From Oscillospiraceae bacterium (lineage in GTDB: Bacteria; Bacillota; Clostridia; Oscillospirales; Acutalibacteraceae): 64,000 bases of DNA. Below, in pieces: positions 936-21,136 of this stretch. Location of the stretch: positions 1 through 64,000 of the forward strand of contig SVOT01000004.1 in the NCBI GenBank assembly GCA_015066225.1, in the 5' to 3' direction. The position numbers and the translations under genes are program-made. Positions within the stretch are counted from its first letter, which is position 1. Each line of letters starts with the position of its first letter. The notes under the pieces are model-generated. The model was not told the origin of the DNA, did no database searches, and saw nothing but the letters and a program-made list of their open reading frames with translations.

Positions 936-2009
936 TTAAAATTTTGTATCGGTAATTCGGGGAATCTCAATGGATTCTGTATATAATTTTCTCGGCTCAT
1001 TTTCATCAAGCACAATAAGTCTGCCGCCGTGCTCCATACCATATGTGAAATAACCGGCACCAAGTGTCTGATAAAGGTCAATTCCGTCAACGTTCATTTT
1101 AAAATCATTGACGTGGTCGTGGCCGAAAAATGCGGCGAAAATGTCACCCGTTTCTTTCCAGCTTGCAAACTGCCGGGTATAATCCTGTTCCATATTCGGA
1201 GGACACGGCACTTCCCTAACCCTGCCTTCCAATATTTCGTTTGAAAGATAAAAATATTTTCCGTCACGCTCGAAGGTATATTCATCATCTGCAGTAACTT
1301 CCCTAAAGCCTTTAAGCTCTTCCTGAACGGGGATATGCTGAAAAAGTATAGCCGGAAGAGGCTCCCCGCCATTGGCTTTTCTGAGTTCTGCCGCTCTTTT
1401 TTCATACCACGCAATCTGATCCTCGTGAACGTGGTCGTAGCCGGTTTCGCCGTTTTCCTTAGGCTCATAATCGTTGGAATCCATAAGCCAAATTGCAAAA
1501 GCATCCTTTTCGCCGTCACTGCTTTTGATTGTTACGCAACAGTTACCGCAACCGTAAACATCCGCATCATTAAGATTTGAACGGCAATTTGCATATTCCA
1601 TATACTGCATCATCTGAAACTCGGTATGGAAGCCACACTCACCGTCGTGATTGCCGAAAACAACACAAAGAGGGATATTCCTCTTTCTTATAGGCTCAGT
1701 AATTTTCCGGATTGTACTCTGAATAAGGTCGTATGTAAATTCCTCCCAATAACCGCTGACGTTGTCTCCACCGAAAACAACAAGGTCGGGATTAGTCTTT
1801 GCCACAAGGCTTTCAATAACGTTGAGTGTTTCTTTATCTTTGTTATCGGGAATTTCACGAATTTCGTCATCATCCATTATTGGCTCAACGTCGTGAATAT
1901 CGGTAATGTGCAATATTTTGAATTTACCGTCTGCACCGAATTTTAACGGTGCAGGCATTTCTCTTTTAAATTTGTACGTTTTCCATTTTTTGGGGTAACC
2001 CATTGCCAT
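936..2009 (-). CDS. Calcineurin-like metallophosphoesterase
   Basis: Predicted cytoplasmic dinuclear-metal phosphoesterase of 357 aa. No signal peptide is seen. The metallophosphatase motifs occur in order: TDIHD (about residue 36), GGDN (about 80), FGNHDGE (about 119), FQHIP (about 225) and FGHDHVND (about 295). The N-terminus reads like the YkuE/Icc-type purple-phosphatase branch, but the substrate cannot be inferred. An AGAGG Shine-Dalgarno precedes the ATG. It starts 19 bases after the stop of the M29 aminopeptidase, so the two are probably co-transcribed. A second, more distant phosphoesterase with the same HDHVND ending lies at 48120-49289. Confidence 0.88.
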   Translation of the reverse strand: MAMGYPKKWKTYKFKREMPAPLKFGADGKFKILHITDIHDVEPIMDDDEIREIPDNKDKETLNVIESLVAKTNPDLVVFGGDNVSGYWEEFTYDLIQSTIRKITEPIRKRNIPLCVVFGNHDGECGFHTEFQMMQYMEYANCRSNLNDADVYGCGNCCVTIKSSDGEKDAFAIWLMDSNDYEPKENGETGYDHVHEDQIAWYEKRAAELRKANGGEPLPAILFQHIPVQEELKGFREVTADDEYTFERDGKYFYLSNEILEGRVREVPCPPNMEQDYTRQFASWKETGDIFAAFFGHDHVNDFKMNVDGIDLYQTLGAGYFTYGMEHGGRLIVLDENEPRKLYTESIEIPRITDTKF

Positions 2010-16056: not shown

Positions 16057-19000
16057 TTATGAATCAATTTTGCCATAGATAGCTGTAAGCACAATTAAAT
16101 CTTCTTCGCTCACTTTTCCGTCAGCATTGATATCGCAAGCGTATTTCTCTGCTGTCGATAGACTTGATGGATTTTTTACAGCCTGTTTGATTGCATCTGA
16201 ATCTGCTTCTTCAAACGCTTTGCCGTTGCGGTTAAAGTCACCGACTGCATAAACATCAACAGCTTTATCGCCATTGATCATCCGCTCCAGAAGAGAAACA
16301 TCAACAACATCAAGATAGCCGTCACCATCAAGGTCATATTTCACTATATCATCATAGCTTGCAGTTTCGATTTGTTTAACAGCTTCTTGCTCAGGGTCTT
16401 CATTCAAAATAGCGTTCACAAGTACCTGATAGTCATTTACATCAACTGTTCCGTCACCGTTAGTGTCACCAACATTTGCAACGGAGTAGTTACCTGTTTC
16501 ACCTACTGTTACAACCTTGTAAAGCTCATTATCTGTAATAATCGGAAGTGAACCTTCTGTATTGCTCATCTGCCCCCAAACCTGCTCGGTATTACCTTGC
16601 TGGAGAAGATATGCAACCTCACCGCTTGCAAATTGCTCGACTGTCTTACCACCGTCCTCTGTTTCTGTTTCGGAAAGATAATAGGAATTTTTGTTATTAA
16701 AATGGAAAGTGGATATGTCATGAGCATTAGCATCACTCGTTACCTTACCTATATTAAAACAGTTATAGCATTGAGTATCAATTCTGGAGCCGAAAAGGCC
16801 ACCGGCATAGCTTTCGCCAGTTATATCGCCTGTATTGTAGCAATTTTCCATATAGCCGAAATACACTTTACCAGGTTCACCCATTGGCTCATAACCACAA
16901 ATGCCGCCTGCATAATAACCATCAATATTACCGTTATTACCGCACTGATAAAAATTTGTTTGTTTTATTTCTCCGCATATTCCGCCTGCATTATTCTCTG
17001 CGCTGACAGTAGCATTACTAACACAATTTGTTATTTTGCTATACATAGCCTTGCCGCAAAGGCCACCTGCAGAGGTTTTACCTTTTATATACGCATTGCT
17101 GATATTAAAGTCTTTAATATTAGCATTATAAGTAACGCCAAAAAAGCCTGCGTAATCAATATCGGAGTTTATGTAAATTCCGCTTATTGTGTGATTATTT
17201 CCGAAAAACTCGCCTCCTGATGTCTCTTCTTCTGTTCCCATGGGTGTCCATTCGTACCATCCGCTTGTAACAGGCTCACCGTTATAAAGCACAGTTCCGT
17301 CTTCATTAAACACATAGCCCGGATTCAAATCAATATCTGCAACAAGCTTAACATACATTTCATTGGCGCCGGCTTCATTTATAGCTTGTTGCCACCATAA
17401 AAGGTGACCTATGTTTGAAATCAGATAATATATATCGCCTTTTGGTGGTTGAGTATACATTCCGCAGAAAACACACTTATAATCAATATAGTTATGGCCA
17501 TTAGTTTCACTGCTATTTGAATATCCGGTGTCCCCTCCGCACACAGGAACCTTATAAAGCTTGCCTGCGTTTATTGTAGGTACATACTGCCGCGGTTTGC
17601 CATTATCAATATCCTGCCCCCAAACCTGCTCGGTGTTATTGCTTTGAAGATAGTACGCAATTCTGCCGTTTTCAAGGCCCTTCTGCGAGGCTGAGTTTGC
17701 TGTAATGTTAGTAACAGAATGAGCCAAACCATCAAGATAATAGTTATTTGAGCCTGCATTTGTTGAACCGTAATTTTTCAAGGTGCCAACAATAGCACCC
17801 CTGCCTTCAGGAAGTGTGCCAACGCTCAAGCAATTTGATATAGTCAATGCCTTTGCATTTTCACCATTATAATAGCCGAGAATTCCGCCAACATTCCCCC
17901 CTGAATATGTAGTGTCAATATCTCCGTAAAAGCCGCAGTTATTAATTTTGGCAGTTTTGCCGTTGTAAACATAACCAACTATGCCACCCACACAGTCAAG
18001 TGTGTTGCTGCCAAGAGAAAGCTTTCCGCTATATGAACACATATCTACAGTAATATTACCTGTTCTGCCAACAATACCACCAAAATATTTTTTTTGATAA
18101 GAATCGCCCGATGTGAGATTAACTGAGGAATGAACATTTCTTATTTCAGCTCCACCATCAGCCTGACCTACAACACCATACTGAACATCCACGTTAGAGG
18201 TAAGTGCTGTGGTTACATCACCATTAATTGAGAAGTTCTTAATTACCGTGCCTTCACCCGCAACGTATCCAAACAAGCCCCAGTTACCTACACTTGTAAT
18301 ATGAATATGAAAGTTTGAAATTGTATGACCTTGGCCGTCAAAAACGCCCGCGTATTTATTTGCAGCTTTACCAATAGGCGACAAAGCTCTGCCCTCAAGG
18401 TCAATATCTGCCGTGAGAACCGCATTGGCTGTTCTGTCAACGGTGTTGATATAATTTCCAAACCAGAAGAGCTGACCTCCATTGGAGATTTCATAATAGC
18501 CGTCTGCATTCATGGTCGCAGGATCGTAGATGCACAGGTCGCAGAAACCGTTTGCGGCACTTGCTCCGACATGATAACCCACCGCAGTGCAAACCTCGCC
18601 CGAAGCAAACCAATCGGCGGGCTTGGAATCAGTCTGACCGGTAACGTCCGCCGTCGTGCTGCCCGCAGTTTCATTGCCGACACCGAACTGTGTTACGTTG
18701 TTTCCGTCGGTTGCACAACCGTTCAAATAATAGCTGTTCATCACGGCGCCGTATGTGTCGTTTTCACCCAGTATACCGCCGATATTATAGTTGCCGCTGA
18801 CAGAGCCGGTATTATAGCAGTTCGTCACGGTGCTATTGTTACGGCCAATCACACCGCCGACCCTGTAGCTACCGCTGACAAAGCCGGTATTATAGCAGTT
18901 CGTCACGGTGCAGTAGTTGCAGCTATAGCCCGCCACACCACCAACATTGTAGTTACCGCTGACAGAGCCGATATTATAGCAGTTCGTTATAGTGTTGTAG

Positions 19001-19629
19001 TTATAGCCCGCCATGCCACCGACAAAACGAACGGCACAGATAACAGTGCCTGTGTTATAACAGTTTGTCATAGTACCCTTGTTATAGCCTACCACACCGC
19101 CTACATACGCTTCTGCGTTGAAGTATGAATCAATAACACCGACGTTTTGGACTTTACCGGCACGGCCTATCGCTCCAAACAGACCAACGTAGTCGACGGT
19201 GTCATCATTAAAGTACAAACCGCTGACGGTGTTTCTGTTGCCTTCAAAGATACCGGCGTAGTTGTTGTCTCCATTGCCTATGGGAGTCCATTCTCTGAAA
19301 TTCGAGACGTTGCCGTTCAGCCCGCCGTCACTGGTCAGCACGTTTTCGTTGACCGTGATATCTGCGGTCAGCTCACCGTTAATCGCATAGTTGCCGTCAT
19401 TCACCGCCGCCGCAAAAGCATACAGTTCATCGGCAGTGCCGATTTCATAGTAACCGTTGCTGTCGGCATCCCTGAGAGTTACGGATGTACCTGTGTCAAT
19501 GGTTACCGTAGTGTCAGTTGCCGCCGCACTTGCGGTTATACTCACCATTGGCACATAGCTCATTACAAGAGCAAGGCAGAGCGCAATGCTGAATATCTTT
19601 TTTATAGTTCTGTTAGTTTTGGTTTTCAT
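16057..19629 (-). CDS. Secreted GLUG-repeat protein with C-terminal dockerin-like domain
   Basis: Very large extracellular protein (1190 aa). A signal peptide is clear (KKIFSIALCLALVMSYVPMV, cleavage near ASAAA). Three blocks each open with a GYYEI..GxELY/LFWF segment followed by ADIDL..G...PIG...YAGVF.G..HTISG, then GLUG repeats of the type VGGVAGYN..TITNCYNIGSVSG. These should fold as a right-handed beta-helix. The C-terminal 150 residues carry four calcium-loop segments: DTNGDGTVDVNDYQ, DLDGDGYLDVVDVSLLERMI, DFNRNGKAFEEADSD and DINADGKVSEEDLIVL. The first, second and fourth match dockerin type I. A dockerin would tether the protein to a cohesin scaffold. The ligand is unknown. It lies 79 bases downstream of the ubiquitin gene on the same strand. 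Confidence 0.85.
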   Translation of the reverse strand: MKTKTNRTIKKIFSIALCLALVMSYVPMVSITASAAATDTTVTIDTGTSVTLRDADSNGYYEIGTADELYAFAAAVNDGNYAINGELTADITVNENVLTSDGGLNGNVSNFREWTPIGNGDNNYAGIFEGNRNTVSGLYFNDDTVDYVGLFGAIGRAGKVQNVGVIDSYFNAEAYVGGVVGYNKGTMTNCYNTGTVICAVRFVGGMAGYNYNTITNCYNIGSVSGNYNVGGVAGYSCNYCTVTNCYNTGFVSGSYRVGGVIGRNNSTVTNCYNTGSVSGNYNIGGILGENDTYGAVMNSYYLNGCATDGNNVTQFGVGNETAGSTTADVTGQTDSKPADWFASGEVCTAVGYHVGASAANGFCDLCIYDPATMNADGYYEISNGGQLFWFGNYINTVDRTANAVLTADIDLEGRALSPIGKAANKYAGVFDGQGHTISNFHIHITSVGNWGLFGYVAGEGTVIKNFSINGDVTTALTSNVDVQYGVVGQADGGAEIRNVHSSVNLTSGDSYQKKYFGGIVGRTGNITVDMCSYSGKLSLGSNTLDCVGGIVGYVYNGKTAKINNCGFYGDIDTTYSGGNVGGILGYYNGENAKALTISNCLSVGTLPEGRGAIVGTLKNYGSTNAGSNNYYLDGLAHSVTNITANSASQKGLENGRIAYYLQSNNTEQVWGQDIDNGKPRQYVPTINAGKLYKVPVCGGDTGYSNSSETNGHNYIDYKCVFCGMYTQPPKGDIYYLISNIGHLLWWQQAINEAGANEMYVKLVADIDLNPGYVFNEDGTVLYNGEPVTSGWYEWTPMGTEEETSGGEFFGNNHTISGIYINSDIDYAGFFGVTYNANIKDFNISNAYIKGKTSAGGLCGKAMYSKITNCVSNATVSAENNAGGICGEIKQTNFYQCGNNGNIDGYYAGGICGYEPMGEPGKVYFGYMENCYNTGDITGESYAGGLFGSRIDTQCYNCFNIGKVTSDANAHDISTFHFNNKNSYYLSETETEDGGKTVEQFASGEVAYLLQQGNTEQVWGQMSNTEGSLPIITDNELYKVVTVGETGNYSVANVGDTNGDGTVDVNDYQVLVNAILNEDPEQEAVKQIETASYDDIVKYDLDGDGYLDVVDVSLLERMINGDKAVDVYAVGDFNRNGKAFEEADSDAIKQAVKNPSSLSTAEKYACDINADGKVSEEDLIVLTAIYGKIDS

Positions 19630-19639
19630 AGTATCTTCC

Positions 19640-19700
19640 TTTTAGAAATATAGTCGCCATTCCCCGGAATTCTTACCCGGCAGTTGATAGCCGGAGACCG
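19640..19700 (-). other. GC-rich leader between the ubiquitin and GLUG genes
   Basis: Sharply more GC-rich than its surroundings. It contains CCGGC-N8-GCCGG and ATTCC-gg-GGAAT inverted repeats on the minus strand, immediately upstream of the GLUG gene ribosome site (AAAAGGAAG). It could be a structured 5' leader or a terminator of the ubiquitin gene. It does not match a riboswitch class I recognise. Confidence 0.35.
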
Positions 19701-19708
19701 GTGCTTTA

Positions 19709-20350
19709 TCACTGCATATCAGGACAGCATTTATATTCCGTTCCCGTAAGCATTGAAAAAATCGAATAAAAGAATTTCATAATAGTTGAATAAATAAGGT
19801 TGTTGGAATCGTGGCACCAACAGTTGTTGCAAATAAGAGATTTATCTTCTATGCCGTTTTCGATTTTAGTTTTAAGCTCTGAAAGCTCTGCAACCGCAAG
19901 GTTGATTTCTTCTTGTGTTTTTAAATTCTCTTTATTATATTTTTCTAAAGCATTCTCTATTTCTTCTCTTGCTGATTTTATGAGTCCGGCTGTATTTTTG
20001 AGTTCCTTTAGCTCCGCTGTGATATTCTCTAATTCCGCATAATCCGGACCTAATCTCAAAACAAGATGGATGGTGCTGTCCTTTTCTATGGAATAATCTG
20101 CAAGAGTTCTGCCATCTTCAAGTTCTTTTCCGCTAAAAATCAAGCGTTGCTGTTGGGTTGGTATTCCCTCTTTATCCTGAATTTTTTGTTTTACTGCTTC
20201 AACAGTATCACTGCTTTCAACTTCGAGAGTTATATTTCTACCTGTTAATGTTTTTACATATATCTGCATTGCTGATGCAGAAATTGCCATTGAAAAAACC
20301 AATATTATCGTTAAGACGCATACAGTGAATTTTTTTGTTATCCGTTTCAC
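19709..20350 (-). CDS. Secreted eukaryote-type ubiquitin with C-terminal helical, Cys-containing extension
   Basis: The 213-aa protein starts with a signal peptide (1-27, ending SASA). Predicted cleavage exposes [10 protein letters not shown], the exact start of ubiquitin. Residues 28-100 align without gaps to human ubiquitin 1-73 with 16 differences by my hand count (about 78% identity). The L8/I44/V70 patch, H68 and lysines 6, 27, 29, 33, 48 and 63 are kept; K11 is Arg. The conjugation tail RGG is replaced by GPD. A helical FIVAR-like region (about 104-170) follows, then CNNCWCH, a hydrophobic stretch (185-202) and CC near the end. Translation starts at GTG with AAGGGTGAG upstream, 11 bases after the TetR stop, so the two genes are coupled. 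No E1, E2 or deubiquitinase homologue is nearby. A role as host-directed mimic or cell-surface protein is inference. Confidence 0.93.
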
Positions 20351-20361
20351 AATCTCACCCT

Positions 20362-21021
20362 TTATTCATTCAAAAATTCATCTAATTGCTTGAGCATTTC
20401 TGTTTTGATTTTTTTATAGTCTGTTTCAAGAATTTTTGTAATAACTTTTTCTCGTTTTTCTTTTTCAAAATCATATATTTTCAAAAGGCAGGTAAGCGTT
20501 AAGCGAATTTTGTCTTCTAACGTGTAATCCTCTGTGCAAGGCTCTGCAAGGGCGCTTCGTTCTATACAGCAGGTCACATTTGCAACCCTTCTGAATCGCT
20601 TCAAATCCCAATCGGGAAGATATGCACCGAGAATATCAAAATTCTTTTCGGCAGTCCAATCTTTAAGAAAAGACATTGTAAGCGGCTCTGAATACATTGA
20701 ATAATAAATATCTCTTATATTTTCTTTTTCTTCGCACAGGGTTATCTGCACGATTATTTCAAGGCAATACGTATATAGATTTTCTTCATTTTTACTTTTA
20801 TTATATTCAATAAATTTTGTATGATAGCTCATTATCTTCTTTGTGAATTCAAGAAGAAGGTCTGCCTTTGAAGGAAACCAGAAGGTCAGATTACCGGGAC
20901 TTATTCCCACTTCCTCGCAAATCTTTTTTGCCGATGTATTGTGAAACCCGTTTACGAGAAACTGCTTAATTGCAGCATCAATAATCGCCTGTTGTGTTGT
21001 ATTGTTTTCTCTGTGCGCCAT
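20362..21021 (-). CDS. TetR/AcrR-family transcriptional regulator
   Basis: The 219-aa repressor-type protein has an N-terminal helix-turn-helix: [20 protein letters not shown], then [26 protein letters not shown] helical ligand-binding domain follows without a recognisable ligand signature. The start is the ATG at 21021, with AAAAGGA 8 bases upstream; a longer frame would run through the promoter. It is the first gene of an operon with the ubiquitin gene. A 14-bp palindrome next to its -10 box suggests autoregulation, and therefore joint control of the ubiquitin gene. Confidence 0.88.
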
Positions 21022-21051
21022 AGCCAAGTTCCTTTTAGCACGCTTACTATT

Positions 21052-21065
21052 TAGTATATATACTA
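21052..21065. promoter_or_regulatory. Palindromic operator of the TetR-ubiquitin operon
   Basis: Perfect 14-bp palindrome TAGTATATATACTA immediately downstream of the -10 element. A further TAGTA copy follows it and a partial copy (GTAGTATATGCACTA) lies in the spacer. Confidence 0.6.
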
Positions 21066-21093
21066 TATTAGTGCATATACTACATTTTGTCAA
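21065..21093 (-). promoter_or_regulatory. Promoter of the TetR-ubiquitin operon
   Basis: Minus strand TTGACA, 17 bases, TAATAT. The TetR start codon lies about 44 bases downstream. Confidence 0.75.
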
Positions 21094-21136
21094 CACTTTA
21101 ACAATCTTTTTATAAAAATTTTTTGAACCCTATTTG

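Follow-up and report, generated by a model that had tools for sequence, protein, structure and literature searches.

The window, the 64,000-nucleotide stretch of a Clostridia contig analysed here, carries on its reverse strand a gene whose product is predicted to be a secreted protein headed by a eukaryote-type ubiquitin domain (Table 1). Immediately 5′ of the GTG start is the sequence AAGGGTG, which overlaps the stop codon of the gene for a TetR-family regulator, and the two genes likely share one transcript. The GC content is 34.9% for the ubiquitin ORF, 34.3% for the TetR gene and 42.1% for the whole window.

Table 1. Features of the ubiquitin locus, in window positions.
Feature	Position	Strand	Basis
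Predicted secreted ubiquitin-headed protein, 213 aa, GTG start	19709..20350	-	ORF list, profile match
Putative signal peptide, residues 1-27, ending ASA	20270..20350	-	sequence and heuristic (hydrophobic stretch plus AxA), not SignalP
Ubiquitin domain, residues 28-100 (Met1-Leu73)	20051..20269	-	Pfam, alignment, AlphaFold, Foldseek
C-terminal extension (residues 101-213) with GPD, a pair of long helices by prediction and a low-confidence final part	19712..20050	-	sequence, AlphaFold
Cys-rich and hydrophobic end, residues 174-213 (CNNCWCH...)	19712..19831	-	by eye, resembles the CxxCGxxH-plus-hydrophobic ends of loci L108 and L109
TetR-family regulator, ending 11 bp short of the ubiquitin start	20362..21096	-	profile match, gene order
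Next gene: 1190-aa protein, predicted secreted, with signal peptide, GLUG repeats and dockerin	16057..19629	-	ORF list, profile match
674-bp segment missing from congener G007, containing just the ubiquitin gene	19695..20368	-	flank alignment

The ubiquitin domain matches Pfam PF00240 with an E-value of 2.7e-30 (104.4 bits; cut-off 25.4), which excludes a chance resemblance and bears out the preliminary description, made from the DNA letters, of a eukaryote-type ubiquitin in a Clostridia genome. The count of 16 differences from human ubiquitin over residues 28–100 given there is exact, with 57 of 73 residues identical (F4Y, K11R, T12N, P19S, I23V, N25A, A28Q, P38T, D39Q, A46S, Q49E, S57A, N60S, Q62E, E64D and L67I); the alignment also confirms that the L8/I44/V70 patch, H68 and six of the seven lysines are kept, the one loss being K11R. 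The structure prediction proposed at the same time, carried out with AlphaFold, returns a ubiquitin fold with block pLDDT values of 87–96 over residues 1–70, the tail helices being modelled at lower confidence. Among the 50 matches listed by Foldseek against the PDB, the hits were ubiquitins, ubiquitin variants or ubiquitin-containing chains, with a TM-score by target of 0.89–0.99 for most single-ubiquitin chains, lower values for multi-unit chains and a few others at 0.31, 0.32 and 0.77. The profile score above the curated cut-off and the predicted fold together place the domain in the ubiquitin family. In an NCBIfam scan of eight proteins (six with ubiquitin and two neighbours), the ubiquitin domains matched rad23 alone, below the cut-off.

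The flanks of the domain point to export without conjugation. The residues A-S-A stand immediately ahead of ubiquitin Met1 and close a hydrophobic stretch, in agreement with the earlier prediction that export would leave Met1 exposed, a call made here by heuristic and not by SignalP. Past R72-L73 the protein reads G-P-D, followed by 110 further residues, in place of the R74-G75-G76 end, as the preliminary description had also stated; a conjugatable ubiquitin ends in LRLRGG, free or processable, whereas the window protein continues as RLGPD plus 110 residues and has no conjugating end. The extension has no recognisable anchor, and its residues 104–213 gave no match across the 21 other genomes of the genus searched. 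The Cys-rich end of the window protein did not pass the search pattern used for CxxCGxxH-like C-terminal segments. At loci L108 (2481–4506) and L109 (1094–3542), a CxxCGxxH-like plus hydrophobic C-terminal segment is common to neighbouring secreted-type proteins and is perhaps a sorting tag. The E2 profile PF00179 found no match in the window's own genome (0 of 1) and likewise none in the control genomes (0 of 14).

The ubiquitin gene is native to this genome and not a contaminant. The contig measures 190.8 kb in a 2.04-Mb genome that carries one such ubiquitin gene, and no other of the genus's 22 genomes, 11 of which reach 90% completeness with contamination of 5% or less, has a PF00240 match. 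In the congener G007, window positions 21105–20369 align at 81.9% and positions 19694–19547 at 78.7%, in blocks that lie 8 nt apart; there, 75 bp separate the TetR orthologue (81% identical at the protein level) from the gene for a secreted-type protein that comes next. A second congener, G020, likewise lacks the ubiquitin gene. Because the G007 flanks align and nearly adjoin, the ubiquitin gene constitutes a clean 674-bp presence/absence segment, and the misassembly that the preliminary description had raised as a concern is very unlikely. Eukaryotic contamination or a chimeric contig was rejected on the same alignment, and its probability is negligible. A scan of GTDB genomes gave at least 361 confirmed stretches, and the best 80 that were retained do include contaminant-looking entries, such as the polyubiquitin L085; against this, the window gene has a bacterial start, a putative signal peptide, a long contig and congener flanks, and its relatives among the best 80 include 14 isolates by title, one of them a complete genome (CP011265.1), 12 of which pass the signal-peptide heuristic.

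In the genus at large, the TetR regulator precedes a large protein whose start resembles a signal peptide at 10 of 11 TetR loci (L116–L126, a count that leaves out second matches and the weaker matches L127–L134), L126 being the exception. At L125, a 98-aa gene (1115–1411, reverse strand) lies between TetR and the large, GLUG-like protein and so fills the slot that ubiquitin holds in the window; its product presumably resembles the four-helix-bundle S23 proteins. The order TetR, ubiquitin, secreted-type protein recurs in genomes of two other genera (G337 and G243), whose TetR proteins share only 23% identity with that of the window and in which a C-terminal CxxCGxxH-like plus hydrophobic segment is common to the ubiquitin protein and the product of the next gene. 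By Pfam, GLUG repeats are also present in the tails of ubiquitin proteins from Clostridia (L047, L084 and L072) and, barely above the cut-off, from Fibrobacter (L064); none was found by Pfam in the L054 tail. Within the window's family, genome G036 encodes two ubiquitin domains fused to GLUG proteins, the partner type found downstream in the window.

Relatives across bacteria were chosen by ubiquitin-like peptide patterns and likeness to the window. By the heuristic, a signal peptide ends at Met1 in 60 of the best 80 GTDB loci and in 75 of the 99 rows collected, which include duplicates (L033 = L159). The window ubiquitin, presented earlier as a special case, is therefore one of many, and the design with a signal peptide ending at Met1 is, by the look of these sequences, widespread among bacteria; some of the best-80 rows without a signal peptide are probably eukaryotic contamination. 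Pfam annotation of 58 tails (53 passing the heuristic and five with signal peptides recognised by eye; tails shorter than 30 aa or containing X omitted, long ones clipped at 900 aa) gave, among the families listed (25 of 38), autotransporter (12), dockerin (6), SLH (5), fn3 (5), GLUG (4), Flg_new (4) and IPTL-CTERM (4). Matches, counting the window's own genome and weak ones, were found in 19 of 398 genomes of the family, 5 of 394 in an order sample, 5 of 398 in a phylum sample and 0 of 14 controls. Two of 72,556 plasmid records matched, the second (Pseudoalteromonas) at 39%, and no match was found in 50,697 phage records. IMG/VR yielded one locus and nine more, with signal-peptide-like starts in L169, L172–L174 and L176 (L173 and L174 by eye), and ubiquitin may thus be carried on phage-like contigs. 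At locus L105 (8497–10003, reverse strand) of genome G113, a leader ending LSEEELELVIGG is common to a tandem array of four small genes (103–123 aa), three of which match PF00240; a C39 peptidase gene is located elsewhere in this genome, and the tandem ubiquitin-like proteins look exported via the double-glycine route.

The phylogeny that the preliminary description had also proposed was built from 101 rows and 73 columns, with L045 left out because it is out of register by one residue. The tree is little resolved, its bootstrap did not settle, and its eukaryotic sampling amounts to a single human row and two further rows, besides likely contaminants and viral contigs. The window ubiquitin forms a clade with three Bacilli rows at a support of 98/93: L025 from goat colon, L028 from water deer rectum and L079, a Lactobacillales record with no source given. 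The nearest rows by path are two Bacilli, at 0.23 and 0.26, followed in third place by a plant ubiquitin at 0.27. Because the window ubiquitin groups with Bacilli, it appears likelier that the gene passed from one bacterium to another than that it was captured straight from a plant or an animal. The plant/protist affinity that had been read from Ser19 and Ala57 was not supported: alanine at position 57 is shared by 44 of the 75 rows with a signal peptide, and serine at position 19 by 11 of the 36 that are non-redundant. A direct plant or protist donor for the window gene was rejected on the position with Bacilli, which argues weakly given the sparse eukaryotes, the plant row in third place and the unsettled bootstrap.

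Bacteria have likely captured ubiquitin more than once, as far as sequence comparison tells. For two members of the window's family, and with multi-unit chains, whose scores add up, set aside, the top PDB matches are 4GSW for L004 (136.7 bits versus about 124 for human, ~12 more) and 5XY3 for L003 (141.8 bits versus about 124, ~17 more). The former is described as the ubiquitin of Entamoeba histolytica (PMC8588831) and the latter as that of Trichomonas vaginalis (PMC8215155). In AU tests, the hypothesis that the ubiquitins of the window's family all share one origin was rejected (p 0.017 with nine rows and 0.023 with seven, the groups having been named after the tree was seen); a grouping of the window clade with the Entamoeba-like rows was not (p 0.33).

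The ubiquitin domain evolves under constraint. Rough Nei-Gojobori estimates place its dN/dS at 0.03–0.20 in 12 of 14 pairs; the outliers are L057/L101, at 0.6 on very few changes, and L003/L005, which is saturated. Between L108 and L109, dN is 0.031 in ubiquitin versus 0.151 in the tail, at a dS of 0.45 and 0.50. Over 36 non-redundant rows, residues of the I44 patch are conserved at 0.78–1.00, except Q49 at 0.56, and the mean identity to human ubiquitin is 0.856, figures that are inflated because the rows were picked by ubiquitin-like patterns and likeness to the window. Part of the constraint could stem from fold stability.

Ubiquitin is held to belong to cells with nuclei. The precedent for a secreted bacterial form named in the preliminary description, BfUbb of Bacteroides fragilis, holds good: BfUbb is reported to be secreted and cleaved exactly at Met1, its synthetic 76-mer inhibits sensitive B. 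fragilis strains, and the authors' data suggest that producers need no immunity protein (PMC5705921). It inhibits other strains of the same species and is an antibacterial precedent (PMC5705921); the host mimicry or decoy suggested in the preliminary description may be one of several readings. BfUbb is described as lacking the GG end (PMC3352274), and Tyr119 of a PPIase as critical for sensitivity to it (Jiang 2024, as cited in PMC12396204). BfUbb is described as a free 76-mer with 63% identity to human ubiquitin, whereas the window ubiquitin has 78% identity over 73 residues and a 113-aa tail, and its gene belongs to a Clostridia host and adjoins TetR and GLUG/dockerin genes. The window protein thus shares with BfUbb a signal peptide ending at Met1, by the heuristic, but not a mature product consisting of ubiquitin alone.

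Other systems resemble the window protein in part. In the Firmicute Ruminococcus albus 7, plasmid pRUMAL01 encodes WP_013483628.1, annotated as ‘ubiquitin family protein’, in which a signal peptide, ubiquitin at Met1 and a tail follow one another as in the window protein; it differs in being plasmid-borne and in its tail, which, judged by eye, looks like the small secreted-type products of the genes to either side. Among the papers listed in a literature search for R. albus and ubiquitin, none dealt with WP_013483628.1. The nearest domains, those of the Bacilli L025 and L028 (84% and 82% identity to that of the window), belong to proteins that, together with L079, differ in having C-terminal NPxT-type anchors (NPxT-hydrophobic-basic) and, by eye, no TetR directly upstream. 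A secreted ubiquitin extension protein of Globodera rostochiensis likewise combines signal peptide, ubiquitin and C-terminal extension, but it is described as the effector of a eukaryotic parasite, with a 12-aa extension that is cleaved in the plant (PMC5705921). Among the matches listed in a search of literature titles and the starts of abstracts, which covered sources other than subscription papers and bioRxiv, a secreted bacterial ubiquitin appears for B. fragilis only.

We propose, at roughly even odds (about 0.5), that the window encodes a laterally acquired, exported, non-conjugating ubiquitin that serves as an extracellular binding head. On this view, the gene for a eukaryote-type ubiquitin would have arrived by lateral transfer, been equipped with a signal peptide of bacterial type and a new C-terminal tail, and come to lie between the genes for a TetR regulator and a GLUG/dockerin surface protein. 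The protein would leave the cell via Sec, signal peptidase would expose the native ubiquitin N-terminus, and the GPD end and helical tail would block conjugation. Outside the cell, the I44 patch would act as a non-covalent binding head toward neighbouring cells, made together with the surface protein. We infer co-transcription, export, cleavage and binding alike; non-covalent binding would be the simplest use because export exposes Met1 and the conjugating end is lost. This account is favoured by the Pfam match and fold, the presence/absence segment, the recurring TetR-ubiquitin-secreted order, the GLUG fusions, the Bacilli clade with its anchors, the surface-type tails, the low dN/dS and the conservation of the I44 patch. 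Speaking against it are the patchiness of the gene (1 of 22 genomes in the genus, 19 of 398 in the family), a tail without anchor or relatives in the genus, the two dN/dS outlier pairs and the choice of rows by likeness. The surface-type tails that many relatives carry would agree with bacteria or eukaryotes being bound at the cell surface.

As to what would be bound, the analogy with BfUbb ranks other bacteria slightly above protists or the host. The window protein might be a diffusing or contact-acting antibacterial whose target in related bacteria would lie outside the cytoplasm and could, for example, be a peptidyl-prolyl isomerase; this is a possible but less likely reading, which draws on the secretion, Met1 cleavage, strain inhibition, apparently dispensable immunity protein, missing GG and PPIase Tyr119 of BfUbb, on a GG-less oyster ubiquitin reported to be bacteriostatic (PMC10892293) and on the bacteriocin-like look of the G113 tandem proteins, with their double-glycine leaders and C39 peptidase gene. 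It sits less well with the many relatives that are fused to surface-type domains instead of being free 76-mers, and with the 113-aa tail of the window protein. Ubiquitin readers are mostly cytosolic, which counts against a mimic aimed at eukaryotes, in which the displayed ubiquitin would engage such readers, or receptors, in grazing protists or in the animal host. The kept I44 patch, the proximity of L004 and L003 in the PDB to ubiquitins of gut and mucosal protists, and the reported, disputed effects of extracellular ubiquitin on mammalian cells (PMC10892293) would suit such mimicry; some relatives, however, come from bacteria with record titles that give no hint of an animal, such as the pond MAG L027, the identity of the donor is uninformative on the target, and we regard this reading as unlikely.

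Less probable still is a purely structural cap: a stable domain that folds fast would help surface proteins to be exported, to fold or to resist proteases, and would have no partner. Ubiquitin is indeed joined to many unrelated surface-type domains, usually directly behind the signal peptide, but its identity to human ubiquitin, in rows chosen by likeness, seems to exceed what the fold alone should need, and in the window and several other cases there is no large fusion partner to be served. 

It is possible, at a little under an even chance, that ubiquitin-headed surface proteins make up a class that is widespread in bacteria, and perhaps present in some archaea, but has gone unrecognised. 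In this class, ubiquitin would have been captured more than once from eukaryotes, including relatives of gut protists, passed between bacterial phyla and wired to the anchor of each lineage (autotransporter, S-layer, dockerin, sortase or IPTL-CTERM) as a means of recognising or attacking neighbouring cells. Should the surface-type form prove as frequent as the GTDB loci make it look, R. albus 7 and the Cohnella, Dyella and Pedobacter isolates would be hosts in which to study binding by the extracellular ubiquitin face. The case bears on the bacterial reuse of eukaryotic domains.

Three further arrangements were encountered among the relatives. In a Clostridia MAG from water buffalo rumen (L041, 7033–8174), genes for two secreted-type ubiquitin proteins lie back to back. 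Signal-peptide ubiquitin fusions are also present in Methanothrix/Methanotrichaceae MAGs (L039 and L091), which are archaea if the binning is right. At four loci (L082, L046, L068 and L169), a signal peptide and ubiquitin are followed by an intact RGG end and stop, and these ubiquitins are therefore predicted to be secreted and possibly conjugation-competent; that of Dyella OK004 (L082) is identical to human ubiquitin at 72 of 73 residues.
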